A stretch of 34,291 nt of DNA from an uncultured Pseudomonadota bacterium (lineage in GTDB: Bacteria > Myxococcota_A > UBA796 > SXON01). The notes under the pieces were generated by a model. It ran no database searches. It was not told where the DNA came from and was given only the letters and a program-made list of their open reading frames with translations. Shown in pieces: positions 4,735-34,017 of this stretch (positions are counted from its first letter, which is position 1; every line of letters begins with the position of its first letter). The DNA lies in contig CAJBVW010000181.1 of NCBI GenBank assembly GCA_903959175.1, positions 1 to 34,291 of the forward strand, written 5' to 3'. A program made the position numbers and the translations under genes.

Positions 4735-4761
4735 GTGTCGGTCGCGGGGCGGGGAAGTTGA
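4735..4761 (-). promoter_or_regulatory. Sigma-28-type promoter of the fliF operon
   Basis: Read on the minus strand, a -35 TCAA (4761-4758, in the context CCGCTCAACTTCC) is followed by a 15-base spacer and a -10 ACCGACAC (4742-4735). A run of six A lies at 4772-4767, just upstream of the -35. The -35 and -10 match the shape of the FliA consensus TAAAGTTT-N11-GCCGATAA. The spacing is identical to six other minus-strand sites in the window. The fliF GTG lies 20 bases downstream. Confidence 0.75.
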
Positions 4762-4822: not shown

Positions 4823-5506
4823 TCAGTTCTCGCACGCGAGGCTCAGGCGGAAGTTGGTCGCGGCCTCATCCGGCGTGTCGACGATGACCAGGAAGCGGTC
4901 GTCCGGGAAGGCGTCGATCACGACCGTGTCGTCTCCGCTGTCCGTGCCGGCCTCGCATTCGATCACGCTGTTGGCCTCGGTGGGGCAGTAGTCCTCGTCC
5001 CAGTCCACGATGAAGAGGTCGACGTCTTCGCACGGGGCGTCGAGCGTGGCCGTGACCCGCGTGCGCTCGGTGAAGAACATCTCGTAGACGCGCTCCGTGC
5101 CCGCGTAGTCGGTGGGGAAGGGGTCGCAATACCAGGAGAGCAGCGCGTCGCCGTTGATCACGTCGGTGCCGCCCTCGGTCGTGCCCTCCAGCGTGTCGCC
5201 GCACGTGATCGCCTCGCTGACGCAGTCCGGCCCGGAGCTGGGTGAGGGGAGCGAGGCATCGCAGAAGGTGGGGTCGGTGTCGGTGTCCGAATCCGTGTCG
5301 GAGTCGGTGTCCGTGTCGGTATCGGTGTCCGAATCGGTGTCCGAATCGGTGTCCGAATCGGTGTCGGTGTCCGCGGCGTCGTCGACGACGCAGGTGCCAT
5401 CCTCCTCATGCGTGCCCTCTCCGCACGCGAGGGTGTCGTCGTCATCCGAGGACTTGGAGAAGGCGCAGGCCGCGAGGAGGGAGAGCAGGGCGAGGGAAGC
5501 GCGCAC
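4823..5506 (-). CDS. Putative lipoprotein with Thr/Asp/Ser repeat linker
   Basis: I do not recognise a family for this 227-residue protein. A short signal sequence ends in the lipobox LAAC (Cys14). An Asp-rich and Cys-containing segment and then a linker of TDTDSD repeats (about 46-78) follow. The C-terminal domain (about 80-227) is rich in Cys and beta-strand, with GDTLEGTTEGGTDVING, RVTATLDAPCEDVDLFIV and DDRFLVIVDTPDEAATNFRL. That layout resembles a bacterial pre-peptidase C-terminal (PPC) type beta-sandwich, but this is only an inference. Such linkers are common in myxobacterial secreted proteins. The start is GTG; an upstream sequence TATACT at about 5532-5527 could be a -10 element, but I see no matching -35. 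It lies 64 bases after fliE and before fliF, so it may be the last gene of the fliC-flgB-fliE operon. A role in motility is not shown. Confidence 0.8.
   Translation of the reverse strand: MRASLALLSLLAACAFSKSSDDDDTLACGEGTHEEDGTCVVDDAADTDTDSDTDSDTDSDTDTDTDTDSDTDSDTDTDPTFCDASLPSPSSGPDCVSEAITCGDTLEGTTEGGTDVINGDALLSWYCDPFPTDYAGTERVYEMFFTERTRVTATLDAPCEDVDLFIVDWDEDYCPTEANSVIECEAGTDSGDDTVVIDAFPDDRFLVIVDTPDEAATNFRLSLACEN
5274..5371. repeat. Degenerate hexamer array encoding the TDTDSD linker
   Basis: The sequence consists of imperfect tandem units such as tcggtgtccgaa and tcggtgtcggta. On the minus strand these read as GAC/ACC/TCC codons (Asp, Thr, Ser). The repetition is explained by the protein linker and could vary in copy number between strains. 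Confidence 0.8.
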
Positions 5507-6700: not shown

Positions 6701-8848
6701 TCAGGTTCCTCCGGCGGCGGGTGCGGCGGTGGGCGCGGGCGTGGCGGTGGCGGTGGCCCGGGCCGGTGCGGGCTGACCGAGGCGGGCGCGCAGGACGGCG
6801 TCCGCGGTGTCCTCGTCGGCGAGGCGGCGCCAGGCGCCGGCGTCCGGGGTGGCGGCGACCGAGCGCGCCCAGGCGATCGAGGCCGGATCGATCAGGGTCG
6901 TGGCGGCGACTGCGGCGGCGGCGCGGGCCTCGTCGAAGCGCCCGAGCTGCACGAGGCAGGCGGTGCGCGCGGCGTCCAGGCGGCCGGGAGAGAGGTCCTC
7001 CGGGAGCGGGGCGGTGGAGGCGGCGGTCAGCAGGTCGACCCCCGCGCAGGCGCCGGACTCGGCGTTCGAGAGCGCGACGCGGAGGCCGGCCTCCGCCTTG
7101 GCGGCGGGCGGGCCGGCGATGGCGGTCCACGCGACGCGGGCGGCCGTGGGGTCGCCGCCGTCGAGGAGCGTGCGGCCGCGGAGGAGGGCGATGCGACCGT
7201 CGAACTCGGGGGTGCGGGGGCGGGTGGCGAGGAAGGCGAGGGCTTCGAGCGCCTCGGAGGTGCGGGCCGTGCGCCGGTAGGTGTCGGCGATGGCGAAGAC
7301 GGTCTCGCGATCGTCGAGCCTCTGACGGCCCTCGATCGTGGCCACGGTTCCGAGCGTAGCGAGCGCCTCCTCGTCGAGAGCGGAGTTGCGCCACAAGGAC
7401 GCTATCTCGACGAGGGGCGCAGGATCGAGGAGGTGATGTTCGAGGCCGGGGCGCCACGCGGCCACATGGGCGGCGAGGGCCTCCACCGGGCGCTTCGCGT
7501 CGAGCAGGCCGCCGGTACGGCGCGCCCATGCGGCGACGAGGCGGCTGCCGGGGTCGCCGTCGAGGAGACGGCGGCGGCGGTCCACGAGCAGACCGAAAGA
7601 GTGGATGGCGATGTCGTCGTCGCCGAGCTGCGTGCCGATCTGGCCCAGCAGGTAGAGGGCCTCGAGGGCCTCGTCGCTCGCCGCGTGGTCGGCGCCGGTG
7701 CCGTCCGCGCGGCGGGCGTTGCCCATGCGCTCGAGGGTCGGCACGAGGGCGGGCCAGGCGTCAGGTGACTGGCGCAGCACGGACACGAGCTGGAGCCGCG
7801 AGCGGGAGAGGCGACGGACGCGGTCGGGGAGCGTCTCGGGGAGGCGGCCGAGCGCCTCCTCGGCGCCGTCGAAGTTTCCGGCGAGGAGCTGGGCGTCCGC
7901 GAGGAGGAGGCGCGAGTAGGGGGCGAGCGGACCGTCCGCGGCTGCGGCCCGGGTGAGCGGCACGATGGCTTCGGTCCAGCAGTCGGCGCGCAGCAGCGTG
8001 GCGCCGGCGAGGAGCGAGGCGAGCGGCCCTTCATGGGGGGACAACGCGCGGGCGAGGTCGACGCGCACCGGGGGAGGGGGCCCTTGGGGAGGGCGGTCGT
8101 CCTGGAGGCGGCCCAGCGCGACCGTGGCGAGGACGACGAGCACGTTGCGCTGGGAGGCGCCGCCCTTGCCGGCCTCCTCCGCGGCGAGCTCGGCGCCGTC
8201 GAAGTCGCCGAGGGCGAGGAGGGCCTCAGCGCGCTGCAGGCTCGCGACGCCGGTGGGGGCGCCGAGCGCGGCGGCGCGGCCGAAGTAGAACGCGGCCTCG
8301 CGGAGGTGACCGAGGTCGCGGTGGAGGGCCCCCATCTCGTAGAGGCCATTGGCGCTCGGGCGATCGGCGCCGAAGAGGTTGGCGCGCAGCGTCGCGATGC
8401 GCTCCCAGCTCGGCGTCATCGGCTCGGCGGTGCCCCAGCGCGGCAGGTCGAGCGAGATGTCCTCGAGGGCCAGGAGCTGGTCGGCGCCGTGGAGCGGGAA
8501 GAGCGCCGTCGAAGGGGAGTCGGTGCAGTGGAGGTCGGGGCCCGGGACGACGCGGGAGATGGGCACGGGCGTCGCGATCCAGCCGTCTTCGACGCGCGAG
8601 ACGACGAGGGTCGTGTCGGACTTCCTCATCCACGCGGTCACGACGTGGTGGCCGCCGAGGTCGGTGACGCGGCCGGCGCGGACGCCGTCCCACGGGGCGT
8701 CGTGGAAGAGGCCCCGGAGGTCGCCGGCGCCGTGCACGAGCAACTCGACGCGCCCGCGCTCGACGAGCGGGAGGACCTCGACCGTCGCGTCCGGTGGGCC
8801 GGAGAGGTAGAGGGGCGCGGCCCATGCGGAGAGGGGGAGGAGCATCAT
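6701..8848 (-). CDS. Periplasmic TPR protein in the flagellar operon (candidate motor scaffold)
   Basis: The 715-residue protein begins with a short hydrophobic signal-like sequence (MMLLPLSAWAA, 1-11). A beta-rich domain follows (about 12-135; for example ATVEVLPLVERGRVELLVHG and KSDTTLVVSRVEDGW). From about 165 to 690 it is a helical array of tetratricopeptide-like repeats, such as NGLYEMGALHRDLGHLREAA, LLALGDFDGAELAAEEA and LLADAQLLAGNFDGAEEAL. An Ala/Thr/Pro tail ends it. Two ATG codons are adjacent at 8848 and 8845. The gene overlaps its upstream neighbour and is one base from flgB. Signal peptide, beta-domain and long TPR superhelix recall the layout of Campylobacter PflA, a periplasmic scaffold of the flagellar motor. 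That is an architectural analogy, not demonstrated homology. A general assembly factor is the alternative. Confidence 0.85.
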   Translation of the reverse strand: MMLLPLSAWAAPLYLSGPPDATVEVLPLVERGRVELLVHGAGDLRGLFHDAPWDGVRAGRVTDLGGHHVVTAWMRKSDTTLVVSRVEDGWIATPVPISRVVPGPDLHCTDSPSTALFPLHGADQLLALEDISLDLPRWGTAEPMTPSWERIATLRANLFGADRPSANGLYEMGALHRDLGHLREAAFYFGRAAALGAPTGVASLQRAEALLALGDFDGAELAAEEAGKGGASQRNVLVVLATVALGRLQDDRPPQGPPPPVRVDLARALSPHEGPLASLLAGATLLRADCWTEAIVPLTRAAAADGPLAPYSRLLLADAQLLAGNFDGAEEALGRLPETLPDRVRRLSRSRLQLVSVLRQSPDAWPALVPTLERMGNARRADGTGADHAASDEALEALYLLGQIGTQLGDDDIAIHSFGLLVDRRRRLLDGDPGSRLVAAWARRTGGLLDAKRPVEALAAHVAAWRPGLEHHLLDPAPLVEIASLWRNSALDEEALATLGTVATIEGRQRLDDRETVFAIADTYRRTARTSEALEALAFLATRPRTPEFDGRIALLRGRTLLDGGDPTAARVAWTAIAGPPAAKAEAGLRVALSNAESGACAGVDLLTAASTAPLPEDLSPGRLDAARTACLVQLGRFDEARAAAAVAATTLIDPASIAWARSVAATPDAGAWRRLADEDTADAVLRARLGQPAPARATATATPAPTAAPAAGGT

Positions 8849-9426
8849 GGGAGCACCATGGTCGCGCCGAGGGAGAGGCGGAGGGCGCCGAAGTTCAGGC
8901 CGCACGGGGCCTCGACCTCGCAGGAGGAGACGGTGCGGAGCGTGGCGCGGCCGCCAGCGCGGGCGACCAGGAAGAAGTCGGCGGGGCCGCGGTCGTGCAT
9001 CACGCGGGTGAAGACGCGGGGGTCGAGGCGGGCCTCGGCCTGCCCGAGGACGCCCCACTTGCCGCCCTCGTAGCCGGCGGTCGGATCGGTGCCGGGCTTC
9101 TCCGCCCACACGATGGCGGTGGGGCCGAGCGAAGCCGCGGCGGTGAAGGCGCCGAAGCTGACACGCGGGCCGATGGTCACGGCGAGGGGAGCGTACCAGA
9201 GCCAGCTGCCTTCGCCGCTGGTGACGCCGTCGGCGAGGGTCTCTCCGCCGAGGCGTCGGTAGCCCGCGGAGACGCCTGCTTCGAGGAAGGGGAGGACACG
9301 CACGCGCGCCTCGAGCTCTCCGCCCAGGGAGCCGCTGCCGTACGCACGCGTGAGCGTCTCGTCGCCGATGGCCTCGGCCACCGCGTGCAGCCCCACGCTC
9401 ACCTCCATGTGCGCCGCGGCGGTCAC
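8845..9426 (-). CDS. Small beta-barrel-like protein of the flagellar operon
   Basis: I do not recognise the family. The 193-residue product has alternating polar/hydrophobic strands separated by turns, for example ELEARVRVLPFLEAGVSAGY, WYAPLAVTIGPRVSFGAFTA and LNFGALRLSLGATMVLP. This pattern is typical of small 8-stranded outer-membrane barrels. Odd points are the absence of any hydrophobic signal peptide and of a terminal aromatic residue. The GTG at 9426 was chosen because it overlaps the preceding stop (GTGA); an ATG six codons later (9408) is the alternative. The end overlaps the start of the TPR gene. Co-translation with a periplasmic TPR protein suggests a shared envelope role, which is inference. 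Confidence 0.7.
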   Translation of the reverse strand: MTAAAHMEVSVGLHAVAEAIGDETLTRAYGSGSLGGELEARVRVLPFLEAGVSAGYRRLGGETLADGVTSGEGSWLWYAPLAVTIGPRVSFGAFTAAASLGPTAIVWAEKPGTDPTAGYEGGKWGVLGQAEARLDPRVFTRVMHDRGPADFFLVARAGGRATLRTVSSCEVEAPCGLNFGALRLSLGATMVLP

Positions 9427-12419: not shown

Positions 12420-12446
12420 GTGTCGGTCGGTCTCTCCGGGAGTTTA
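12420..12446 (-). promoter_or_regulatory. Sigma-28-type promoter of flagellin 1
   Basis: On the minus strand, -35 TAAA (12446-12443, context CTAAACTC) is followed by 15 bases and -10 ACCGACAC (12427-12420), the same -10 octamer as at fliF. An A-rich tract (AAAAGAAAAA) lies upstream. The predicted leader is about 47 bases and contains a hairpin and the GGGAG ribosome site. Confidence 0.8.
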
Positions 12447-12699: not shown

Positions 12700-13530
12700 T
12701 TACTGGAGCAGCGAGAGGGCCGCCTGGTTGAGCCCCTTGGCCTGGGCGAGAACAGACGTGCCCGCCTGCTGAAGGATCTGGTTGGCCGACAGCTCGGTAG
12801 TCTCCTTGCCGAAGTCCGCGTCGCGGATGCGGCTCTCGGCCTCCGTCGAGGACTGCAGGGAGGTCTCAAGGTTGTTCAGGGCGTTCCCGAGGCGGTTCTC
12901 GGTGGCGCCGTATCCGGCGCGGTAGCCGTTGACCGTGTCGAGCGCGGTGTCGATCGAGTCGAGCGCGGTCTGCGCGCCCGCGGCGGTGGCCATGCTGATG
13001 GTGGCGGTGTCGACGCCGATCGTGGCGGCCGTGAGATCGCCGAGGCTGATGGAGATCCGGTCGTTCGCCGTGTTCTGGATACCGACCTGCACGCCGATGC
13101 TCGTGGTCGTGCCGTCCGCGAGCTTCTGGCCGTTGAACTCGGTGACGCTGGCGATACGATCGACTTCCGCCGTGAGCGACACGAACTCGGTCTGGACGTA
13201 GGCGCGCTCGTCGTCATCGAGGGTCTCGGAAGCGCCCTGGACCGCGAGCTCGCGCATACGGACCAGGATGTTGCTCACCTCGGAGGTGGCGCCTTCCGCG
13301 ACGGACACGATCGACATGCCGTCGTTCGTGTTGCGCATGGCGACCACCGAGGAGGCGGAAGCCGCACGAAGGTTCTCCGCCACGCCCAGGCCTGCGGCGT
13401 CGTCCGCGGCGCGGGTGATGCGCTCGCCGGAGGAGATGCGCTCGAACGAGCGCGACAGAGCGCGGGAGGTCCGGTTGAGGTCCTTGAGAGCGTTGTTCGC
13501 GGTAGAGTTGTTCTTTACGGTAATCGCCAC
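12700..13530 (-). CDS. fliC: Flagellin 2
   Basis: The 276-residue protein is a close paralogue of flagellin 1. It shares TSRALSRSFERISSGERITR, AADDAAGLGVAENLRA, NTNDGMSIVSVAEGATSEV, ILVRMRELAVQGASETL, YRAGYGATENRLGNALNNLE and the end QAGTSVLAQAKGLNQAALSLL. It too lacks D2/D3-like insertions. The start is a GTG at 13530. The gene has its own sigma-28-type promoter (13614-13640) and its own terminator, so it can be expressed independently of flagellin 1. The two copies differ mainly in the short central region, consistent with an old duplication and a filament of two subunits. Which one dominates cannot be told from sequence. Confidence 0.97.
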   Translation of the reverse strand: MAITVKNNSTANNALKDLNRTSRALSRSFERISSGERITRAADDAAGLGVAENLRAASASSVVAMRNTNDGMSIVSVAEGATSEVSNILVRMRELAVQGASETLDDDERAYVQTEFVSLTAEVDRIASVTEFNGQKLADGTTTSIGVQVGIQNTANDRISISLGDLTAATIGVDTATISMATAAGAQTALDSIDTALDTVNGYRAGYGATENRLGNALNNLETSLQSSTEAESRIRDADFGKETTELSANQILQQAGTSVLAQAKGLNQAALSLLQ

Positions 13531-13613: not shown

Positions 13614-13640
13614 TCTTCGGCCAAACCGGCCTCGGGTTTA
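13614..13640 (-). promoter_or_regulatory. Sigma-28-type promoter of flagellin 2
   Basis: On the minus strand, -35 TAAA (13640-13637) is followed by 15 bases and -10 GCCGAAGA (13621-13614). This is one of the closest matches in the window to the FliA -10 consensus GCCGATAA. It starts ten bases after the flgL stop, so flagellin 2 can be read from this site or by run-through from the flgI operon. Confidence 0.85.
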
Positions 13641-15892: not shown

Positions 15893-16207
15893 CTAGATCC
15901 CCCTCATCTGGCCGCGGCGGCCGTAGGTTCGGGGTCCGGCGTCCGGGAGGACGCGATCGAGGGCGGCGAGGACGGTGGCGCCGCACGCGTGGATGCGGAG
16001 GTCGAGCGCGCGGATCTTGCGGGCGACGCCGGCGGCGTGCGTGCGGGTGTCTACGTCGAGCGCGGCGAGGGGGGTGCGCGAGAGCTCTTCCTGGATGGCG
16101 CGGCGCGCCGCTGTCGTCTTGACGAGCGCCTCGGGGTCCACGCGCCGGGCGGCGTCGAGCTGCCCCTCTGCCGCGAGGAGCCAATGATCGAAGCGCTCGC
16201 GGGACAT
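15893..16207 (-). CDS. flgN: FlgN-like export chaperone
   Basis: The 104-residue helical protein lies between flgM and flgK, the usual place of flgN. FlgN binds FlgK and FlgL before export. The tail RTYGRRGQMRG resembles the common end of FlgN proteins (a Tyr-Gly followed by a basic Gly-containing stretch). The body has regular leucines and alanines consistent with a helical hairpin. The ATG overlaps the flgM stop by one base, and the stop abuts the flgK start. Family sequences diverge widely, so synteny carries much of the call. Confidence 0.8.
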   Translation of the reverse strand: MSRERFDHWLLAAEGQLDAARRVDPEALVKTTAARRAIQEELSRTPLAALDVDTRTHAAGVARKIRALDLRIHACGATVLAALDRVLPDAGPRTYGRRGQMRGI

Positions 16208-16497
16208 TACAGCTCCTGGAGGAGGGCGTCGATGGCGCGCTCCACGTCGGCGGGAGAGCCGAGGCGGCCCGCCTCGATCTCGGCCTTCATTTCGGCCACG
16301 AAGTCAGGGCGGATGTCGCCCTGGGTTCCGTGCTCCGCGGCCTTGGCCCGCAGATCGGACGCCACCGAGCCGACGGCGGAGAGCGTACCCGCGGAGCCCG
16401 CCGCGATGTCCGCCGCGACGTTCGCCGTGGCCTTGGGTAGAGAGATGCGCTCGAGACGCGCGACGGCATCGGCGGCGCGGGGGGGAGAGATTTTCAT
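16207..16497 (-). CDS. flgM: Anti-sigma-28 factor FlgM
   Basis: FlgM binds FliA and blocks it until the hook-basal body is complete; it is then exported through the flagellum. The 96-residue protein has a flexible Ala/Ser-rich N-terminal half. The FliA-binding C-terminal segment is RPDFVAEMKAEIEAGRLGSP ADVERAIDALLQEL, which fits the family pattern 'R...V...K..I..G.Y......A..LL'. It overlaps flgJ (ATGA) and the flgN-like gene. Because its own operon carries a sigma-28-type promoter, FlgM would be made under control of the factor it inhibits. Confidence 0.9.
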   Translation of the reverse strand: MKISPPRAADAVARLERISLPKATANVAADIAAGSAGTLSAVGSVASDLRAKAAEHGTQGDIRPDFVAEMKAEIEAGRLGSPADVERAIDALLQEL

Positions 16498-18358: not shown

Positions 18359-18385
18359 GCATCGGTCGCTCCCCTCCGGAGTTGA
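18359..18385 (-). promoter_or_regulatory. Sigma-28-type promoter of the flgI operon
   Basis: On the minus strand, -35 TCAA (18385-18382, context CTCTCAACTCC) is followed by 15 bases and -10 ACCGATGC (18366-18359). An AT-rich segment (GATAAAACC) lies between the motB stop and the -35. The predicted start site coincides with the A of the flgI ATG. Confidence 0.75.
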
Positions 18386-22037: not shown

Positions 22038-22694
22038 CTACTCCTGCATCCGGTTGAGGCGGGCGGAGGCGTCGTCGCTCGCCTGCATTGCCTTCTGTTG
22101 GGCCTCGAACGAGCGCGTGGCCTCCATGAGGTCCACGAGGCAGCGCATCGGGTCGACGTTGGATCCCTCACGGGAGCCCTGCACCACCTCGCCCGTGACC
22201 TTGGTGGCGCTCGCCGCCGACCACAGGTTGTTCCCGAGCGGCGTGCCGCCCGAGAGGCTCACGATCTTGAGCTGGCCGAGGTCGCCGGACTCCGAGCCGC
22301 GCACGGTGCCATCCTGGTCGACCCGCAAGGACTCACCGGGCGAGAGTTGGACCGTCCCGCCGTCCGTGAGGACGGGCACGCCGCTCGCGGAGACCAACTG
22401 GCCGTCCGCCGCCATCTTGAAGCTGCCGTCCCGTGTGTAGGTGCCGTCGGACAGGGCGAAGAAGCCCTCACCGCGCAGCGCCAGGTGGGTGTCGATCCCG
22501 TCGGGGATCAGCGCGCCGTCGGAGCTGTCGTAGCCGCCGCCGGAGGCCTGCACCATGCCGGCGACCTCCTCGTACCGCACGCGCTCCGAGCGGAAGCCGG
22601 TCGTGCTCGCGTTCGCGATGTTGCTCGAGATGACCTCGAGGTTCTTCCACGCGGCGTTGGCGCCCGACCAGGAATTGTAGAGCTCGCTGCTCAT
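22038..22694 (-). CDS. flgF: Flagellar rod protein FlgF
   Basis: FlgF is a rod subunit. The 218-residue protein begins with NLEVISSNIANASTTGFRSE (axial motif) and contains LALRGEGFFALSDGTYTRDG. The C-terminal block NVDPMRCLVDLMEATRSFEA QQKAMQASDD matches FlgF/FlgG. It is a little shorter than usual, and its N-terminal helix (MSSELYNSWSGANAAWK) is more divergent than FlgG's. The ATG at 22694 overlaps the fliA stop (ATGA), which couples a sigma factor gene to a rod gene. Confidence 0.9.
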   Translation of the reverse strand: MSSELYNSWSGANAAWKNLEVISSNIANASTTGFRSERVRYEEVAGMVQASGGGYDSSDGALIPDGIDTHLALRGEGFFALSDGTYTRDGSFKMAADGQLVSASGVPVLTDGGTVQLSPGESLRVDQDGTVRGSESGDLGQLKIVSLSGGTPLGNNLWSAASATKVTGEVVQGSREGSNVDPMRCLVDLMEATRSFEAQQKAMQASDDASARLNRMQE

Positions 22695-23479
22695 GCGGCG
22701 TCCTCCTGAAGCGGTGCGAGCACGTCGGGGCAATGGAAGTCGCGCCCGAGGGCCTTGCGCAGGTGCTCCCGCGCGCTGGTGAGGATCTGGCTGATCCGCG
22801 AGGGGGTGACCTCGAGGATCGCGGCGACCTCGGCCAGGGAGCAGTCGCGTGCGTAGTAGAGCAGGATGACGTTCCGCTCGCGCTCGGACAGGCGGGCGAT
22901 GGCCGCGCGGAGGAGCTGGCGGGCGTCGTGCGCGTCCATGCGTGCCGGGGCTTCCGCGGCTTGGGTGTAGTCGTCGGCGTCCTCGGACTCCTCCTCGGCG
23001 AAGGGGAGCGGCACGAAGACGTGGGGGGTGGTGTACCCGCGCAGACGCCAGTATTCGTCGAGGTCCACGCCGAGGGAGTCGGCGATCTCCGCGTTGGTCG
23101 GCTCGCGGCCGAGCGCCTCGCGGGCCTTGGTGGTGGCGGTGGCGACGGCGCGGGTGGCGTTGCGGTCCCGGCGGGTGGTGGCGGTGACGCCGCGTACGGC
23201 GTCGAGCATGCTGCCGGCGATACGGGTGGCCGCGTAGGTCGCGAAGTCCACGCCGCGGGAGGCGTCGAAGCGGTCGAAGGCCTCGAGGAGCCCGACGACG
23301 CCGTAGGCGACGAGGTCCTCGGGGGTGAGCGGGCACGCGGAGCCGGCCTGCTCGGCGGTGCGGCGGGCGAGGTGGAGCACCTTGCGGGAGAAGCGGACGC
23401 ACGCCTCGTCTCGGGTCATGCCCTCGACCCGCGACTCCGGAGGTGGCGCGGCAGCGGTGTGGTATGCGCGGAGGTGCAA
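22691..23479 (-). CDS. fliA: RNA polymerase sigma-28 factor FliA
   Basis: FliA directs RNA polymerase to late flagellar genes and is held by FlgM. In this 262-residue reading, region 2 is at about 50-96 (LTPEDLVAYGVVGLLEAFDR and SRGVDFATYAATRIAGSMLD), region 3 at about 115-155 and the region 4 helix-turn-helix at about 213-244 (SLAEVAAILEVTPSRISQIL). The start is uncertain: TTG at 23479 has a GGAG five bases upstream, whereas ATG at 23419 (residue 21) has only a weak site but is closer to where homology begins. A sigma-28-type promoter lies at the 3' end of flhA (23553-23579), so fliA looks self-activating. The flgF start overlaps its stop. Confidence 0.95.
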   Translation of the reverse strand: MHLRAYHTAAAPPPESRVEGMTRDEACVRFSRKVLHLARRTAEQAGSACPLTPEDLVAYGVVGLLEAFDRFDASRGVDFATYAATRIAGSMLDAVRGVTATTRRDRNATRAVATATTKAREALGREPTNAEIADSLGVDLDEYWRLRGYTTPHVFVPLPFAEEESEDADDYTQAAEAPARMDAHDARQLLRAAIARLSERERNVILLYYARDCSLAEVAAILEVTPSRISQILTSAREHLRKALGRDFHCPDVLAPLQEDAA

Positions 23480-23552: not shown

Positions 23553-23579
23553 AGGTCGGTCAGCCTGCGCTTGCCTTTA
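23553..23579 (-). promoter_or_regulatory. Sigma-28-type promoter of fliA inside the flhA 3' end
   Basis: On the minus strand, -35 TAAA (23579-23576) is followed by 15 bases and -10 ACCGACCT (23560-23553). It is preceded by the AT-rich segment TTAGATAAGAAACC. It overlaps the last codons and stop of flhA. The predicted leader to the TTG start is about 67 bases. Confidence 0.65.
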
Positions 23580-25692: not shown

Positions 25693-25719
25693 AGTTCGGT
25701 CGCCCCGCCCCGAAGTTGA
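25693..25719 (-). promoter_or_regulatory. Sigma-28-type promoter of the flhA operon
   Basis: On the minus strand, -35 TCAA (25719-25716, context GCGCTCAACTTCG) is followed by 15 bases and -10 ACCGAACT (25700-25693). The flhA GTG begins seven bases further on. The segment upstream of the -35 is less A-rich here (GCAGATTGCG) than at the other sites. Confidence 0.75.
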
Positions 25720-25743: not shown

Positions 25744-26643
25744 TCAGGCGGCGGCGTGCGCCCCGACCTCGGTGGCGACGAGCTTGCAGAGGTCCCCCAG
25801 CTTCTGCCCCGTCAGGTCGAGGCGCAGCAGGACGGGGTCGTCCTCCATCTTGCCGGTCGGGGGCTCGACGGGGCCGATCCCGAGCGAGTCGCACACGCGC
25901 AGCGCGGCCGCGACGACGTAGGCCATGAGCACGCCGGCGCCGGCGTCCGCGGGGCGGTGGTGGTAGCCGATGGCGGCGGTGACGAGCGGCGGGAGGTTCC
26001 AGGCGATGGCGAGGGCCTCGCCCACCTCGGCGTGGAGGTGCATGCACACCTCCTCCACCCGGTTGCTGTCGCGGAACTCGGGCGGCAGGTTGGACGTGCC
26101 GCGCGAGGCCATGCCGAAGATGACGGCCCAGCCGATGTCGTGGAGCAGCCCGGCCATGAAGGCGGAGTCGGCGTCGGTGCCGTAGATGCGGGCGATGTGG
26201 GAGGACGCGGAGGCCACGGCGCCCGCGCGGAGCTGGAGGCGGGACGTGAGCTCGGGGCGGGCGCGCACCATGAGCACGCGGTTGGCCGAGACGGTGAGGA
26301 GGAGCTGGCGGAGCCCGCGCGTGCCGATACGGAGGAGCGCCTCATGCAGGCCCGCGATGCGACGGTTCCCGCCGTAGAGCGGCGAGTTTGCCGCCTTCAG
26401 GAGCTGCGCCGCGAGCACCGGATCCCGGCCGAGCACCTGCACCACGCGCCCGATGGGGAGGCTCGGGTTGTTGGTGAGCGTCATCACCTCGCGGGCCACC
26501 GGCGGCAGGAGCGGCACCTCGGCGAAGTGCCTGAGCTCGAGCAGCAACAGCGGGCGGGCGACCGCGTAGACCCAGCCGGTGTTGGGGGCGGTGGGGTCGG
26601 GGAGGAGGGCGACGGGCGGCCGCGGGGAGCGGTGGAGCATCAT
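25744..26643 (-). CDS. HDOD-domain signalling protein
   Basis: The 299-residue cytoplasmic protein has an HDOD domain at about 38-250. Markers are LRHFAEVPLLPPVAREVMTL (37-56), LGRDPVLAAQLLKAANSPLY (71-90) and AFMAGLLHDIGWAVIFGM (161-178), which retains the His-Asp of the HD superfamily. Also present are HLHAEVGEALAIAWNLPPLV and IGYHHRP. HDOD proteins generally act as signalling adaptors, and several influence motility or c-di-GMP responses; a catalytic role is usually absent. The ATG overlaps the stop of the giant surface protein, and the gene lies 24 bases upstream of the flhA -35. It is therefore the last gene of the surface-protein operon and a plausible link between that operon and motility. 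The target is unknown. Confidence 0.9.
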   Translation of the reverse strand: MMLHRSPRPPVALLPDPTAPNTGWVYAVARPLLLLELRHFAEVPLLPPVAREVMTLTNNPSLPIGRVVQVLGRDPVLAAQLLKAANSPLYGGNRRIAGLHEALLRIGTRGLRQLLLTVSANRVLMVRARPELTSRLQLRAGAVASASSHIARIYGTDADSAFMAGLLHDIGWAVIFGMASRGTSNLPPEFRDSNRVEEVCMHLHAEVGEALAIAWNLPPLVTAAIGYHHRPADAGAGVLMAYVVAAALRVCDSLGIGPVEPPTGKMEDDPVLLRLDLTGQKLGDLCKLVATEVGAHAAA

Positions 26644-29600
26644 TTGATGATCTCGGTGGGGAGAGTGATCTGGCGGGCGTCTGCGGGGATGTCTTCGACG
26701 CGGACGACGCGGAACTCGACCCGTCGGTTCAGGGCGAGGGCGCCGTCATCGTCTCCGGGGGCGAGGGGGCGGGTCTCTCCGTAGCCCTTGGAGAGGAGGC
26801 GGTCGTAGGGCACGCCGTGCTCGACGAGGAAGCGCATGACGGAGAAGGCGCGGGCGTCCGAGAGGCGGAGGTTGTAGGCGTCCGGCCCGTTCGTGTTGGC
26901 GTGCCCCTCGATGAGGAACCACGGCAGGTCGGTGTGGGCGCGCATGATCTCGCTGACCGCGGTGAGCACGCGGGCGCTGCTCGGCAGGAGCTCGGCCTGG
27001 TCCTCCTTGAAGTGGACGGTCTCGGTGATGACGATGCGGTCGCCGGCGAACTCCGCCACCTTGGGGCAGCCGTCCGACCAGCGCGGGTCCTGCTCCGGGC
27101 GGATGGGCTCGCGGGGGCACACGTCCTTCTCGAAGGCGACGCCGTCGCCGTCGCCGTCGAGCTCGGGGCAGCCGTCGTCGTCGGTGAAGCCGTCGAGGGT
27201 CTCGGCCTGGTCGGGGCACTTGTCGAGCGCGTCGGGGAAGCCGTCGCCGTCGCGGTCGGCGGTGGGATCGACGGGCGGCGGCGGCGGGGCAGGCTCGGGC
27301 GTGACGCGGGAGAAGCCGATGCCGACGTACGCGCGCCAGCGGCTCGCGCCGACGCCTTCGCCGATGCCCGCGGCGGCGCCGAGGGAGGCCCAGGCGCCCA
27401 TCGGGAGGCGGGCGCGCGCGCCGAGGGAGGCCTCAAGGGGGACCTGGGGAAGGTCGGAGGCGGTGGAGAGCTCGAACGAGGCGGAGATGGCGTCCGTCGC
27501 GCGGTAGGCGACCCCGAGCCCGGCGACGGGGCCGAGGCCGGAGGAGAGGTTGCGCGACTTTTCGGGGAAGGCCGCCATGGCCCCGGCGAGCGCGACGACG
27601 CCGATCTTGCCGAACTCCTTGGTGCCCGAGAGGGCGACCATGGCGCGGGGGCCGAGGCTCCCGACCCAGTGGGCCTCGGCGCCGGTCGGCGCCCAGATCG
27701 CGGTGCGCACGCCGAGCGCGGGGCCGACCTTGAGGCGGATCGGCACCTGCGCGCCCACGCGCACGTCGCCGAGCGTCGTGAAGCCGCCGCTGCTGTCCTG
27801 CCCGAAGAGGTGGACGGGCGCGACGAGATCGACCTGGAGGCCGCCGAAGGAGTAGGCGGCGGCGACGTTGGCGGTGGCGAGCGCGCTCAGCACCGGCACG
27901 CGGCCGTCGGGGAGCTGCTCGGCGAGCGGGTCGTCCGCGTAGTCCACGGTCACGCCGGCGTCCCAGGAGCCCTTGCGGTCCACCTCGGGGCAGCCGAGCC
28001 GCGTGTAGCAGAGGGGGTCGCCCGTGGTGGCGCCGAGCACGAAGCCGTGGGCGTCGATGGCGAAGGCGGGGCCCGCCGCGAGGAGGGCCGCCGGGGCTGC
28101 CGCGAGGGCCGCCGCCCGCCGGTTGCGCCGAAGCGAGCCGAAGAAGGCGCCGGCGAAGAGGAGCCCGGCCCAGCCGCCGCCGCAGCCGCCTCCGACGAGG
28201 CCGCCCTGGTAGTCGAGGAAGTCGGGGAGGCCGTCGTTGTCGAGGTCCGCCGTCCCCTCGTCGCGGTCGAGGTAGCCGTCGCCGTCGCTGTCGGGGTCGT
28301 GGGCGTTGAGCACGCCGTCCCCGTCCACGTCGGTGTCGTACACGCCGTCGCCCTCGCCGTTCTCCGCGCCGAGGTCCACCGTGAGCTCGTCGCGCGTGGG
28401 GATGCCGTCGCCGTCGTCGTCGGTGTCGAGGGCGTCGAGGATCTGGTCGCCGTCGTGGTCCGTCAGCTCGTCGCCGTCGGAGAGCGTGTCGTCGTCGGTG
28501 TCGGCGTCCTCGTAGTCGGTGCCGAGGTTCCACTCGAGCAGGTCGGCGAGGCCGTCGCGGTCGCGATCGTCGCTCTCGGCCCAGCCGTCGCAGTCGTCGT
28601 CGAGGCCGTTCTCGCGCTCGGCGGCGTCGGGGTTCACGGCGGGGTCGAGGTCGTCGCAGTCCTGGGCGATCTCCCAGCCGTCGCCGTCCTGATCGTCGTC
28701 ACGGCCGTCGCAGTCGTCGTCCACGCCGTCGTACCAGACCTCTCTCGCGCCGGGGTTGATGGCCGCGTCGTCGTCGTCGCAGTCGTCGCCCGCACCGAGC
28801 TCGTTCAGGTAGCCGTCGCCATCGCGATCCCACTCGGAGTAGCCGTCGCAGTCGGTGTCCTGGCCGTCGTCGGGGTCCTCCTCGGCGCCGGGGTAGGCGC
28901 CGGGATCCCCGTCGTTGCAGTCCGTGCCGCCCGCGCCCTCGCCCACCCAGCCGTCCCCGTCGACGTCCACGAGGTCCGCGCCGGAGCAGTCCTGGTCGAC
29001 GCTGTCGTAGGGGATCTCGGTGTTGCCGGGGAAGCGCGCGGCGGAGAGGTCGTCGCAGTCGTCGCCGCCGTAGAAGGACGCGTCGTGACCGTCGCGATCG
29101 CGGTCGTAGTCGGAGCGGCCGTCGCAGTCGGAGTCGACGCCGTCGTACCAGGTCTCGGGGCGGGTGCCGTAGACGGTGGGGTCGTCGTCGTCGCAGTCGT
29201 CGCCGCCCCCGAAGGTGGCGTCGTGGCTGTCGCCGTCGCGATCGTAGTCGGAGTCGCCGCTACAGTCGGCGTCGATGCCGTCGTACCAGGTCTCCGCCGC
29301 GCCGGGGAAGATCGTGGGGTCGGTGTCGTCGCAATCGCCGCCGTACACGCTGCCGTAGCCGTCGCCGTCCACGTCGTCGAGATCGGCGCCGTCGCAGTCC
29401 TGGTCGATGGCGTCGTAGGCGGTCTCGGGGGCGCCGGGGTAGACCGAGGCGTCCCCGTCGTCGCAGTCCACGTTGTCGAACCAGCCGTCGCCGTCGCCGT
29501 CGAGCACGTCCGCGTCGGTCCCGCCGTAGGCGCCGATGTCGGAGCGGGTCGCGTCCACGTCGAAGAGGGCGGGGCTGCCGGCGTCCACCGCGGGGCTCGT

Positions 29601-31588
29601 GGCGGCGAGGGAGAGATCGTCGTCGCGCTCGTCGCCGTCGGCGGTGTAGCTGACCAGCTGCGGCTCGACCGCGAGGTTGCCGCTGGTGCCGGTGGCGTCG
29701 CTCCACCCGCCGACCCAGCCGCCGCCGGAGTCGAGGTACGTGAGGTTGTAGAAACGATCCGAGCCGGTCGCGGTGGCGCCCCACACCCCGCCGCCGTCGA
29801 GCGCCTGGGTGAACAGGTCGTTCACGAGGCGCACCGGGCCGCCCGCGTAGAGGTGCCCGCCCTCGTCCGCGGCGTCGTTTCCCGCGAAGGTGCAGTTGGT
29901 CACCGCGACCTGCGCGGGGCCGCTCGTGTAGAGGCCGGCGCCGTCCGTCGCGAGGTTGTCGGTGACGCGGAGGTTGGTGAGCGCGGCGGCGCCGGGCGAG
30001 CGGAGGCGGATGGCCCCGCCGTTCGCGCCGGCGTTGCCGTGCAGGTAGGCGCGTGAGAGGTCGACGTCCGCGACCGAGTCCGCGTAGACGCCGCCGCCGT
30101 CACCGCCCGCGGTGTTGCGGAAGAAGGTGGCCTCGCGCACAGTGAGCGCGTCGCCGGAGGCGAAGATGGCGCCGCCGTCGTCGTCCGCGGTGTTGTCGGT
30201 GAAGCGCGTGCCGTCGAGGTCGAGCGCGCCCTCGCCGGCGATGGCGCCGCCGTTGCCGAGCGTCGCGTCGTTGCCGTCGAAGGTGCCGCCCTCGAGGGTG
30301 ACCGGCGCGGTAGACCAGACGGCGCCGCCGTCGCCGAGGATGGCGCGGTTGAGCTGCGCCGAGATGTCGACGAGCGCGAGGGCGCCGGTGCCCGCGTGCG
30401 CGATGGCGCCGCCCGAGGTGCGCGCCTGCCCGGCGTCGAAGACGGTGCCGTCGAAGCGCGCGGTGGCCGAGCCTTCCATCGCGACCGAGCCGCCGTTCGC
30501 GGCGGTGTTGTCCTGCCAGGTGCCGTCGAGGTCCTCCCAGGAGGAGCCGGTGGCGAGGAGGAGCGCGCCGCCGTCGCCGGTGGCCACGTTGCCGCTGTAG
30601 ACGCACGCCTCGCAGGTGGCCGCCGAGGTGCCGAGGAGGCGCACCGCGCCGCCCTCCGCCGCGGTCCCGTCCAGCACGGAGAAGGTGGTGAGCGTGGCGC
30701 TCGTGTCTTCGAGGTCGAGGGCGCCGCCGCCGTCCGTGGCGCGCGGGTCACGGATCACGACGTCGTCGAAGGTGATGACGCTGCCGTCGTCCGCCCACAC
30801 GGCCCCGCCCGCGGTGGCGCGGGTGTCGGAGATCGTGGCGACGGTGAGCGTGAGCGCGGCGTGCCCGGTGAGGTAGAAGGCGCCGCCGTCGCCGGTGCCG
30901 CCGCCGGAGGCCGCGTCGGTCCCGTCGAGGGAGAGGTCGGTGAAGGCGAGGTCTCCGCCGTCGACGTAGGCAAAACCGCCGTCGCGCGTCGCCGCGGCGC
31001 CGGTGACGAGCACGTTCGTGAGCGAGACGCTGGCGCCGCCGTCCACATGGAGGGCTCCGCCGTAGGTCGCGGTGCCGCCGGAGAAGACGACGTTGGTGCC
31101 GGTGACGGTGGCGGAGCGCCCGGCGTGGAGCTGGCCGCCCCAGGTCGCGCTGCCGCCGGAGAAGGTGACGCCGGAGAGGTCGAGCGTGGCGTCGTCCACC
31201 GCGAGGGCGCCGCCGGTGAGGCCGAGCCCGCCGGCGTCCTGGATGACGAGGTCCACGGCGGTGAGGGCGCCGCCGTCCACCGTGACGGCGCGGGCAGCGG
31301 TCGGCGTGATCGTGAAGCCGTCGAGCGTCGCGACCTCGTCCCGTGTGGCGACGAAGGCGGTCGAGCCGGAGGGCGGCGCGAGGAAGGTGACCGTGGAGCC
31401 GCCGGTCGAGCGGATCGTGAGGTCCTTCCCGCCGAGATCGAGGGCCTCGGCCCAGGCGCCGGGGGCGACCGAGATCGTGTCGCCGTCGCTGGCGGCGGTG
31501 ATCGCGCTGGCGATCGTCGTGTAGGGGCCGGCGGTGGAGACCGTGAGGGTCGCCGCGTGCGCGGGCATGGCCAGGGCGACGAGGAGGT

Positions 31589-31592
<4 letters not shown>
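26640..31592 (-). CDS. Giant fusion: Pmp-like beta-helix, MopE/TSP3 repeats, anchor-like segment and OmpA protein
   Basis: The predicted product has 1650 residues, and the parts below read in one frame without a stop. A short signal peptide (1-14) precedes a right-handed beta-helix (about 15-690) with a dozen or more GGAI/GGAV/GGAL and F-x-x-N motifs, like chlamydial Pmp repeats. MopE-type Asp/Cys repeats (about 694-1010; CDDGD, DQDCDGAD, WYDGVDSDCDG) and TSP3-like DxDGDG repeats (to about 1128) follow. Then comes GGGCGGGWAGLLFAGAFFGS with LRRNRR (1134-1159), resembling a MYXO-CTERM anchor, and at once a signal-like AAALAAAPAALLAAGPAFA (1160-1178). The last part is a barrel-like region (1180-1430), a Pro linker, two TSP3 repeats (1445-1511) and an OmpA domain (about 1515-1640; GYGETRPL, LNRRVEF). 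It looks like an anchored adhesin fused to an OmpA protein. The ATG at 31592 overlaps the preceding stop. Confidence 0.85.
28059..28193 (-). other. Junction of C-terminal anchor-like and signal-peptide-like segments
   Basis: This segment encodes residues 1134-1178 of the fusion. A Gly-rich motif with Cys1137, a hydrophobic stretch and LRRNRR form what would normally be the C-terminus of a surface protein. The next 19 residues look like the N-terminal signal of a separate OmpA protein. No stop and no ATG or GTG lies between the two in this frame. Confidence 0.75.
28209..29513 (-). repeat. Asp-rich MopE/TSP3-type repeat region
   Basis: About 435 codons dominated by GAC, GGC and TGC encode tandem D-x-D-x-D-G metal-binding units. 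These include at least eight copies of a longer unit with a CDD...P..YPGA.E..YDG.D.DCDG pattern. The DNA repetitiveness (gtcgtc and tcgccgtc runs on the plus strand) is explained by this protein region. Calcium binding is the usual property of such repeats. Confidence 0.85.
29838..31220 (-). repeat. Pmp-like GGA(I/V/L) repeats of the beta-helix domain
   Basis: Residues about 125-585 of the fusion carry repeated units with GGALHVDG, GGAVWADD, GGAVRLLG, GGALLLAT, GGAIAHAG, GGAVWSTA, GGAIAGEG, GGAIFASG, GGGVYADS and GGAIRLRS. These alternate with FDGNDAT, FTDNTAD and FFRNTAG. Each unit is one coil of a right-handed beta-helix, as in polymorphic outer-membrane proteins. Confidence 0.8.
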
Positions 31593-33040
<1,448 letters not shown>

Positions 33041-33041
33041 G

Positions 33042-33167
33042 TCACGCGACTCCGAGGAGCGGCGTACGACCGCGAGAGAGGGACGCCGTCGGCCGCGGAG
33101 TCACCCGCCGCCCTCCACCCCGCGTGAGGAGCATCCAAATGCGACGAGGGGGCGAAGGGGCGTCCAT
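33042..33167 (-). CDS. Possible leaderless 41-codon reading frame before the anchored protein
   Basis: An ATG at 33167 lies seven bases after the -10 element at 33174-33181, the same spacing as at flgI and flhA. The frame runs 41 codons and stops one base before the ATG of the propeller-like protein. The product is Arg/Pro-rich, resembles nothing I know, and its third codon positions are less GC-biased than in neighbouring genes. It may be a regulatory leader frame or coincidence. Confidence 0.25.
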   Translation of the reverse strand: MDAPSPPRRIWMLLTRGGGRRVTPRPTASLSRGRTPLLGVA

Positions 33168-33173
33168 GCGTCC

Positions 33174-33200
33174 GGTTCGGCCGCCTGCCGCGGAAGTTGA
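33174..33200 (-). promoter_or_regulatory. Sigma-28-type promoter of the surface-protein operon
   Basis: On the minus strand, -35 TCAA (33200-33197, context CCGCTCAACTTCC) is followed by 15 bases and -10 GCCGAACC (33181-33174). A GAAAAAACC tract lies upstream. The 13-base -35 context is identical to that at fliF. This ties the anchored protein, the giant fusion and the HDOD gene to the flagellar promoter set. Confidence 0.75.
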
Positions 33201-33300: not shown

Positions 33301-34017
33301 ATGACCTTCTTTCTTCTCTTGGTTGGATGTGACGAGATTGACGCGCTGCTGGGAGGGGTGACGAACCCCGACGTGGCCGAGGGCCTGGTGCTCGGGATGC
33401 AGGTGGATCCCGGCCTCGACCTCACGAACACCGCCTTCGCGGGGGGTGGCCGCGGCGCCGCCTACCTGTCCACCATCGGCGGCGCGCCGCCCGAGACGGC
33501 GGACCTCACGCTCGTCTCCACCTCCAACGGCATCCTGCCGCTCACCGGTCGAGGCGACGGCGTCTGGACCACGAACCCGGACGGCGGCCTCGCCTACGTG
33601 CCCGGGGAGACCTGGACCCTCAAGCGCGACGGCTCCGAGATCCTGCGCGCCGAGGCCGCGGGCCCCGCCTCCCTCAACCTCCTGCGCACGATCACCGAGG
33701 GTGACGAGTTCACCATCGACATCGGCGACCAGGACTACGACGGCCTGCTCGTCTCCGTCGTCGACCTCGCCGACGGCACGCAGAAGTGGTCCAACTTCCC
33801 GGACACCGCCGGCATGGTCTACGACATGCTGCTCTCCGAGCCCGTCCTCGACGTGGAGGTGCCCGCGGAGGCCCTCACCCCCGGCGAGTACGCGGTCGGC
33901 TTCGCCGCCCTGCGCGCCAACGAGTCCGTCCAGACCACGGACGTGAACGCGCTCGCCTCCCTCATGGCGACCGGCGTGCTCGAGTTCCGCGCCCTGACCG
34001 TGGAATCCGCTGAGTAG
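33301..34017 (+). CDS. Putative lipoprotein, function unknown
   Basis: This is the only plus-strand gene in the window. The 238-residue precursor starts MTFFLLLVGC, with the lipobox LVGC (Cys10). The rest is acidic and beta-rich (for example RTITEGDEFTIDIGDQDYDG and LLVSVVDLADGTQKWSNF); I recognise no family. A good ribosome site (AGGAG) lies six bases before the ATG. A sigma-28-like promoter lies upstream, divergent from the surface-protein operon. By that context it could be a motility-linked surface lipoprotein, but nothing in the protein itself shows this. Confidence 0.85.
   Translation: MTFFLLLVGCDEIDALLGGVTNPDVAEGLVLGMQVDPGLDLTNTAFAGGGRGAAYLSTIGGAPPETADLTLVSTSNGILPLTGRGDGVWTTNPDGGLAYVPGETWTLKRDGSEILRAEAAGPASLNLLRTITEGDEFTIDIGDQDYDGLLVSVVDLADGTQKWSNFPDTAGMVYDMLLSEPVLDVEVPAEALTPGEYAVGFAALRANESVQTTDVNALASLMATGVLEFRALTVESAE

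Follow-up and report, generated by a model that had tools for sequence, protein, structure and literature searches.

We have examined a 34,291-nucleotide (nt) window, the whole stretch of DNA analysed (positions 1 to 34,291 of contig CAJBVW010000181.1, assembly GCA_903959175.1), from an uncultured bacterium whose 7.2 Mb genome is a draft metagenome assembly of 611 contigs. In the window, flagellar genes are clustered on the minus strand between fliH (1418) and flhA (25725), and upstream of flhA on the same strand lie three genes, encoding a propeller protein, a large fusion protein and an HDOD protein (Table 1). Adjacent genes in this run overlap by 4 bases, at 31589-31592 (ATGA) between the propeller and fusion genes and at 26640-26643 between the fusion and HDOD genes. 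The fusion starts at the ATG at 31592, and not at the listed GTG at 32597. Because the promoter motif described below recurs ahead of flhA, after the HDOD gene, the three genes appear to form a unit of their own.

An earlier sequence-only reading had proposed that these genes form an overlapping surface-protein operon, including a giant fusion, whose promoter has its -35 context in common with that of fliF. Gene order and overlaps stand in the window, whereas in relatives the HDOD gene is only an occasional neighbour. The giant fusion is real, joining in frame a surface protein and a TraB-like protein with an outer-membrane barrel and an OmpA domain. The promoter resemblance also holds, and extends further than was claimed: the sequences that precede the propeller gene and fliF have in common both the -35 element (CCGCTCAACTTCC) and the -10 element (CCGA), at equal spacing.

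Table 1. Features of the operon and sigma28-type motifs in the window
Feature	Position	Strand	Remarks
Gene 1, propeller protein	31589..33040	-	Signal peptide, beta-sandwich, five-bladed GH43/GH130-type propeller, Asp/Thr-rich linker, MYXO-CTERM-like tail
MYXO-CTERM-like tail of gene 1	31592..31675	-	GGWGC, hydrophobic segment, RR
Gene 2, fusion	26640..31592	-	MYXO-CTERM surface protein fused to TraB-like outer-membrane/OmpA protein; 1650 residues
MopE stalk	28212..29468	-	DVDGDG-type metal-binding repeats, PF11617, 7 stretches, after the beta-helix; approximate limits
Internal joint	28059..28193	-	GGGC motif, hydrophobic segment, RRNRR, second hydrophobic segment ending AFA
Outer-membrane beta-barrel	27306..28058	-	Predicted, 12-stranded; TraB-like part
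TSP3-like linker	27063..27305	-	Calcium type; approximate limits
OmpA-type domain	26694..27056	-	Peptidoglycan-binding
Gene 3, HDOD protein	25744..26643	-	Not a constant member
fliA	22691..23479	-	sigma28 family; TIGR02479, 168 bits
Operon promoter	33177..33200	-	sigma28-type, TCAA-N15-GCCGA, 160 nt upstream of gene 1
Motif upstream of flhA	25696..25719	-	sigma28-type; separates flhA from gene 3
Motif upstream of fliA	23556..23579	-	sigma28-type
Motif upstream of flgI	18362..18385	-	sigma28-type
Motif upstream of flagellin gene (12700-13530)	13617..13640	-	sigma28-type, TAAA form
Motif upstream of second flagellin gene (start about 12367)	12423..12446	-	sigma28-type, TAAA form
Motif upstream of fliF	4738..4761	-	sigma28-type

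A sigma28-type promoter shared with relatives

The promoter motif is concentrated in the window. A strict pattern, CTCAACTTC-N9..12-CCGA, occurs three times there and not once in 100 shuffles, and a looser one, CTCAACTT-N10..14-CCGA, has five matches in the whole genome, three of them in the window (upstream of fliF, flhA and the propeller gene), against none for the reversed control. In its general form, T(C/A)AA-N15-(G/A)CCGA, the motif is matched at seven places on the coding strand of the window, each a short way upstream of a gene. Genome-wide, the general form followed by A or C has 44 sites compared with 30 for the reversed control, so that most of these sites are background; seven of the 44 fall within this 34 kb, where 0.2 would be expected. 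FliA-type promoters have a consensus of the form TAAA/TCAA-N15-GCCGATAA or similar, and the flagellin sites and the N15 spacing assign the motif to the sigma28 type. Local support for the assignment comes from the genes that carry the motif, namely those for two flagellins, fliA, fliF, flhA and flgI. A scan for sigma70-type promoters upstream of the operon found none.

The named relatives are mostly lake metagenome bins (lake origin read from isolate names), labelled Deltaproteobacteria or Proteobacteria, with some labels clearly wrong. Their MYXO-CTERM proteins and MrtX-like proteases suggest that they belong to Myxococcota. Below, G numbers denote genomes (G000 is that of the window), L numbers loci and f numbers families. 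Leaving aside four genomes in which the 5' end of the operon lies beyond the contig edge (G004, G018, G026 and G038), the motif is found within 300 nt upstream of the first detected operon gene in 20 of 28 genomes, window included, as against 0/28 for the reversed motif, 1/28 on the opposite strand and 88 of 9595 random windows of the same loci (0.9%). A chance promoter is rejected on this comparison. G007 becomes the twenty-first positive once its short first gene, with the motif 85 nt upstream, is recognised; that gene (L054, 6685 onward) is a remnant in which the propeller is missing and only linker and MYXO-CTERM tail are left.

Within the limits of the fetched sequence, nine motif-positive operons lie outside the flagellar cluster (G001, G005, G009, G011, G013, G015, G017, G020 and G021), and at eight loci the operon motif is the sole match in the 13.6-20 kb fetched. 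Where an insertion parts the two main genes, in G013 and G015, each gene has a motif of its own. These patterns, which include operons elsewhere on the chromosome, make the proposed link to the flagellar regulon well supported at the level of sequence.

Two side observations concern these loci. In G001 (in L035), a gene for a FliA/WhiG-like sigma factor (G001:C159:9631-10281; 210 bits) precedes the operon by about 0.9 kb. Barrel-OmpA paralogues at L195 (G008) and L200 (G010) have MopE/beta-helix neighbours, and no sigma28-type motif was found anywhere in the fetched stretch of either locus.

Co-occurrence with flagella

A barrel-only profile scored at least 149.9 bits in 29 of 63 genomes of the order; we chose this threshold once the per-genome scores were seen to drop from 149.9 to 112.7 bits. 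FlhA is present in 27 of these 29 genomes and the other two have flagellins, compared with FlhA in 12 of the 34 genomes below the threshold (Fisher p = 1.6e-6, relatedness ignored). Three genomes below the threshold nevertheless have the first protein (G030 and G035, at a contig edge, and G036, with a divergent barrel beside flhA), and two of them, G035 and G036, are among the 12 with FlhA. Within family f1 the operon is found in 19/19 flagellated genomes and in 0/3 of those without FlhA and flagellin. The distribution that the sequence-only reading had named as contrary, an operon mainly in non-flagellated relatives, is not what these genomes show.

Architecture of the fusion

The first part of the fusion consists of a beta-helix and MopE repeats (Pfam) and ends in GGGCGGGWAGLLFAGAFFGSLRRNRR, a MYXO-CTERM-like tail followed directly by a signal-peptide-like stretch with AFA at its end, after which comes the TraB-like part. 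The two parts form one open reading frame (ORF) in 11 genomes from four families (f1, f3, f5 and f6) and two genes, mostly overlapping or adjacent, in 18; this count omits G031 (contig edge), the paralogues G008p and G010p, and the weak matches G041 and G045. The Cys motif (GGGC), hydrophobic segment and Arg cluster of the joint are kept in 11/11 fused ORFs, and the second hydrophobic segment in ten. Since the joint in the window has no in-frame ATG, GTG or TTG, the second part cannot start inside it by a usual codon. The other ten fused joints each hold at least one such codon, and internal starts are compatible with their sequences.

On a tree of the barrel-OmpA part, from which G041 and G045 were dropped and in which G008p and G010p were kept and scored as split, the fused or split state needs six changes, at least three of them forced by well-supported branches. 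Such repeated switching fits a joint that is removed by processing. By eye, the tripartite tail layout is present in 26/26 aligned first parts, of which the MYXO-CTERM model TIGR03901 matches 8. The structural model of the TraB-like part shows a 12-stranded barrel and an OmpA domain (predicted local distance difference test score, pLDDT, 74; predicted template modelling score, pTM, 0.50), and PF13557 matches 10 of 17 barrels (best 5.7e-6). An MrtX-like protease was detected in 36/38 genomes, in all cases below the 180-bit cut-off; among control genomes there were matches in 4.

The propeller protein

The model of the gene 1 product (pLDDT 78) places a GH43/GH62/GH130-type propeller at about residues 103-358, followed by a disordered linker and a MYXO-CTERM-type tail. 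Fold matches reach Z 21.5-23.6, with the GH43 type at Z 23.6, and a GH130-type mannobiose phosphorylase model matches 5 of 12 homologues (best 7e-8). The five-bladed fold is common to GH43, GH62 and GH130 propellers and this protein, which differs from them in being anchored by a MYXO-CTERM-type tail: TIGR03901 matches 8/12 homologues in the family, and the tripartite tail (Cys motif, transmembrane helix, Arg cluster) can be recognised by eye in 12/12. The Asp of the Asp-Pro motif is catalytic in GH43 enzymes. In our propeller alignment (A3) this position varies between Ser, Glu, Gly and Asp, which makes activity doubtful in the branch of the window. The protein was found only in family f1, and in five close pairs it is the fastest-evolving operon product, with the barrel protein among the slower ones. 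The Foldseek and VIA-align lists hold no single-family match for the whole protein, and absence from them proves nothing.

Discussion

We suggest, with a probability of roughly 0.6, that the operon encodes a peptidoglycan-anchored contact adhesin of TraA/TraB-like design that is co-expressed with the flagellum. The regulon link and the protein architecture are read from sequence, and we infer processing and adhesion. A myxosortase would cut after the internal Cys of the fusion and signal peptidase after the second hydrophobic segment of the joint, so that the fused form would be a polyprotein and would yield, once cut, the two mature proteins that also arise from the split form. In this scheme the MopE stalk would display the beta-helix, the barrel-OmpA protein would fasten the beta-helix protein to the cell wall, and the propeller protein, with its GH43/GH130 fold, would add glycan binding. 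With the adhesin present when flagella are made, a swimming cell could hold on to a surface, a particle, prey or a sister cell.

Several observations weigh against this proposal. The adhesive role is suggested by two things, the domain type and the parallel with TraAB, and no TraA-like hypervariable recognition region was found in five close pairs. Neither the propeller tail nor the internal tail of the window matches TIGR03901, the MrtX-like protease of the same genome scores 115.6 bits against the 180-bit cut-off, and the fused joint of G043 is without the second hydrophobic segment. Seven of 28 operons have no motif even when G007 is counted as positive (G006, G029, G032, G036, G047, G053 and G054). 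Finally, the genome encodes further FliA/WhiG-like sigma factors, and the non-flagellated G002 likewise has some, so that FliA is only one candidate for the sigma factor that reads the operon promoter.

The products might instead be accessory parts of the flagellum, bracing or encircling the basal body where it passes the outer membrane, or coating the filament or its sheath. In favour of this, the operon has a sigma28-type promoter, the pair adjoins flhA in eight loci (G000, G004, G007, G008, G010, G012, G026 and G036), and the OmpA domain (fold match Z 15.6) resembles MotB-type periplasmic domains at the level of fold. Set against this, barrel matches at E values up to 1e-30 are confined to this order among the 377 phylum genomes sampled, and they are missing at threshold strength from the 12 FlhA-bearing genomes noted above; from these two facts we conclude that the barrel is no core flagellar part. 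Most operons of genus g4 are located at a distance from the flagellar cluster, and MYXO-CTERM tails together with a GH-type propeller indicate surface display. We therefore regard an accessory flagellar role as unlikely, and favour contact adhesion over bracing of the flagellar base.

The contact adhesin that we propose borrows its layout from TraA/TraB, which are described as encoded by overlapping genes, with a barrel-TSP3-OmpA arrangement in TraB and a 1:1 complex of the two proteins (PMC3325183, PMC12045341). By those descriptions, the operon here likewise has a gene for a tagged surface protein followed by an overlapping barrel-TSP3-OmpA gene. The likeness could mean a true TraAB system, that is, a contact receptor and fusogen mediating outer-membrane exchange between swimming kin, and the TraB model NF033763 does match the C-terminal part (E 3e-48). 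That match reaches 164 bits against a cut-off of 700, and on barrels alone the model gives 2/17 weak matches (best E 3e-4), values on which we reject orthology to TraAB. The first protein also departs from TraA, which has a PA14-type variable domain and a Cys-rich stalk: Pfam finds no PA14 in it, and beta-helix and MopE repeats in its place. The lack of a hypervariable domain points the same way, and TraA/TraB further differ from this operon in that the latter has a flagellar promoter. A true TraAB system is thus distinctly unlikely.

A beta-helix passenger ahead of a 12-stranded barrel in one ORF also brings to mind a split autotransporter, in which export of the beta-helix protein through the outer membrane would be the task of the barrel, with the OmpA domain serving only to position the barrel. 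Barrel fold matches to FapF (Z 23.0) and NalP (Z 19.5) accord with this. FapF and COG4313 (Phenol_MetA_deg; Z 22.7) are 12-stranded channels with the same barrel fold, but they lack the C-terminal TSP3 linker and OmpA domain, and the partner of the barrel here is a tagged beta-helix protein, not amyloid. In a type V chain no membrane segment intervenes between passenger and barrel, whereas here a MYXO-CTERM tail and a signal peptide stand between the two, and each of the 11 fused joints has the hydrophobic segment and the Arg cluster. The two-gene versions in 18 genomes are at odds with one-chain autotransport, and MYXO-CTERM proteins are reported, in the published account, to use type II secretion (PMC11980579). 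We consider an autotransporter very doubtful. That the fusion is a sequencing or assembly error joining overlapping genes, and the motif a coincidence, is hardly credible and for the fusion is rejected across the family: the assembly is a fragmented draft and most family members have two genes, but in-frame fusions with a kept joint recur in 11 genomes of four families, and the motif stands far above its 0.9% background.

Myxococcus xanthus is not known to have flagella. Its protein MXAN_5598, reported to be encoded beside ftsA/ftsZ, is described as a single ORF in which a large region of adhesin type is followed by an internal MYXO-CTERM motif and then by an outer-membrane barrel with an OmpA domain, and Guo, Haft and Wall propose for it a two-gene fusion with processing at the internal motif (PMC11980579). 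Compared by that published description, the fusion in the window has the same layout, so an internal MYXO-CTERM fusion of adhesin and OmpA is already published. The window operon differs from what is described for MXAN_5598 in its tie to the flagellar regulon, its propeller partner and its occurrence in both fused and split forms.

More tentatively, the adhesin could be a swimming-coupled TraAB-like receptor, made as a polyprotein with the flagellum only and cut by two unrelated membrane proteases, at an internal sorting tag and at an internal signal peptide. It might promote outer-membrane contact or exchange, and its fused and split forms might interconvert because processing erases the joint. 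In the open-licence literature we found no description of MYXO-CTERM or TraAB-type operons linked to flagellar control. The contact adhesin that we favour would connect the myxobacterial surface machinery of this type, which has been studied in gliding cells, with the control of flagellar genes in relatives that swim. The fused and split genes also form a natural series in which to examine how a sorting tag works inside a polyprotein, and the flagellar regulon of this uncultured order gains both a promoter motif and a marker operon.

Neighbouring genes

Among the loci mapped, the HDOD gene adjoins the pair only in G000, G007, G032 and G047, and we reject it as a core member of the operon. It may be an old neighbour since lost in many genomes. 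In G032 and G047 (another family), HDOD-like genes lie shortly downstream of the TraB-like gene (L053, 6622-7281, and L237, 9062-9646). In the corresponding gap of G004, no HDOD gene was visible in the frames read on one strand.

The intergenic region holding the propeller promoter is shared with a divergent gene (33301-34017, plus strand) that begins MTFFLLLVGC and possibly encodes an outer-membrane lipoprotein; it has no Pfam or NCBIfam match. Within the flagellar cluster, 16207-16497 (minus strand) encodes a FlgM-like protein (PF04316, 18 bits, below the cut-off), a candidate anti-sigma28 factor. Also on the minus strand are an 802-residue TPR protein of no specific family between fliS and flgB (6701-9109), and a 227-residue protein with no credible family match between fliE and fliF (4823-5506).

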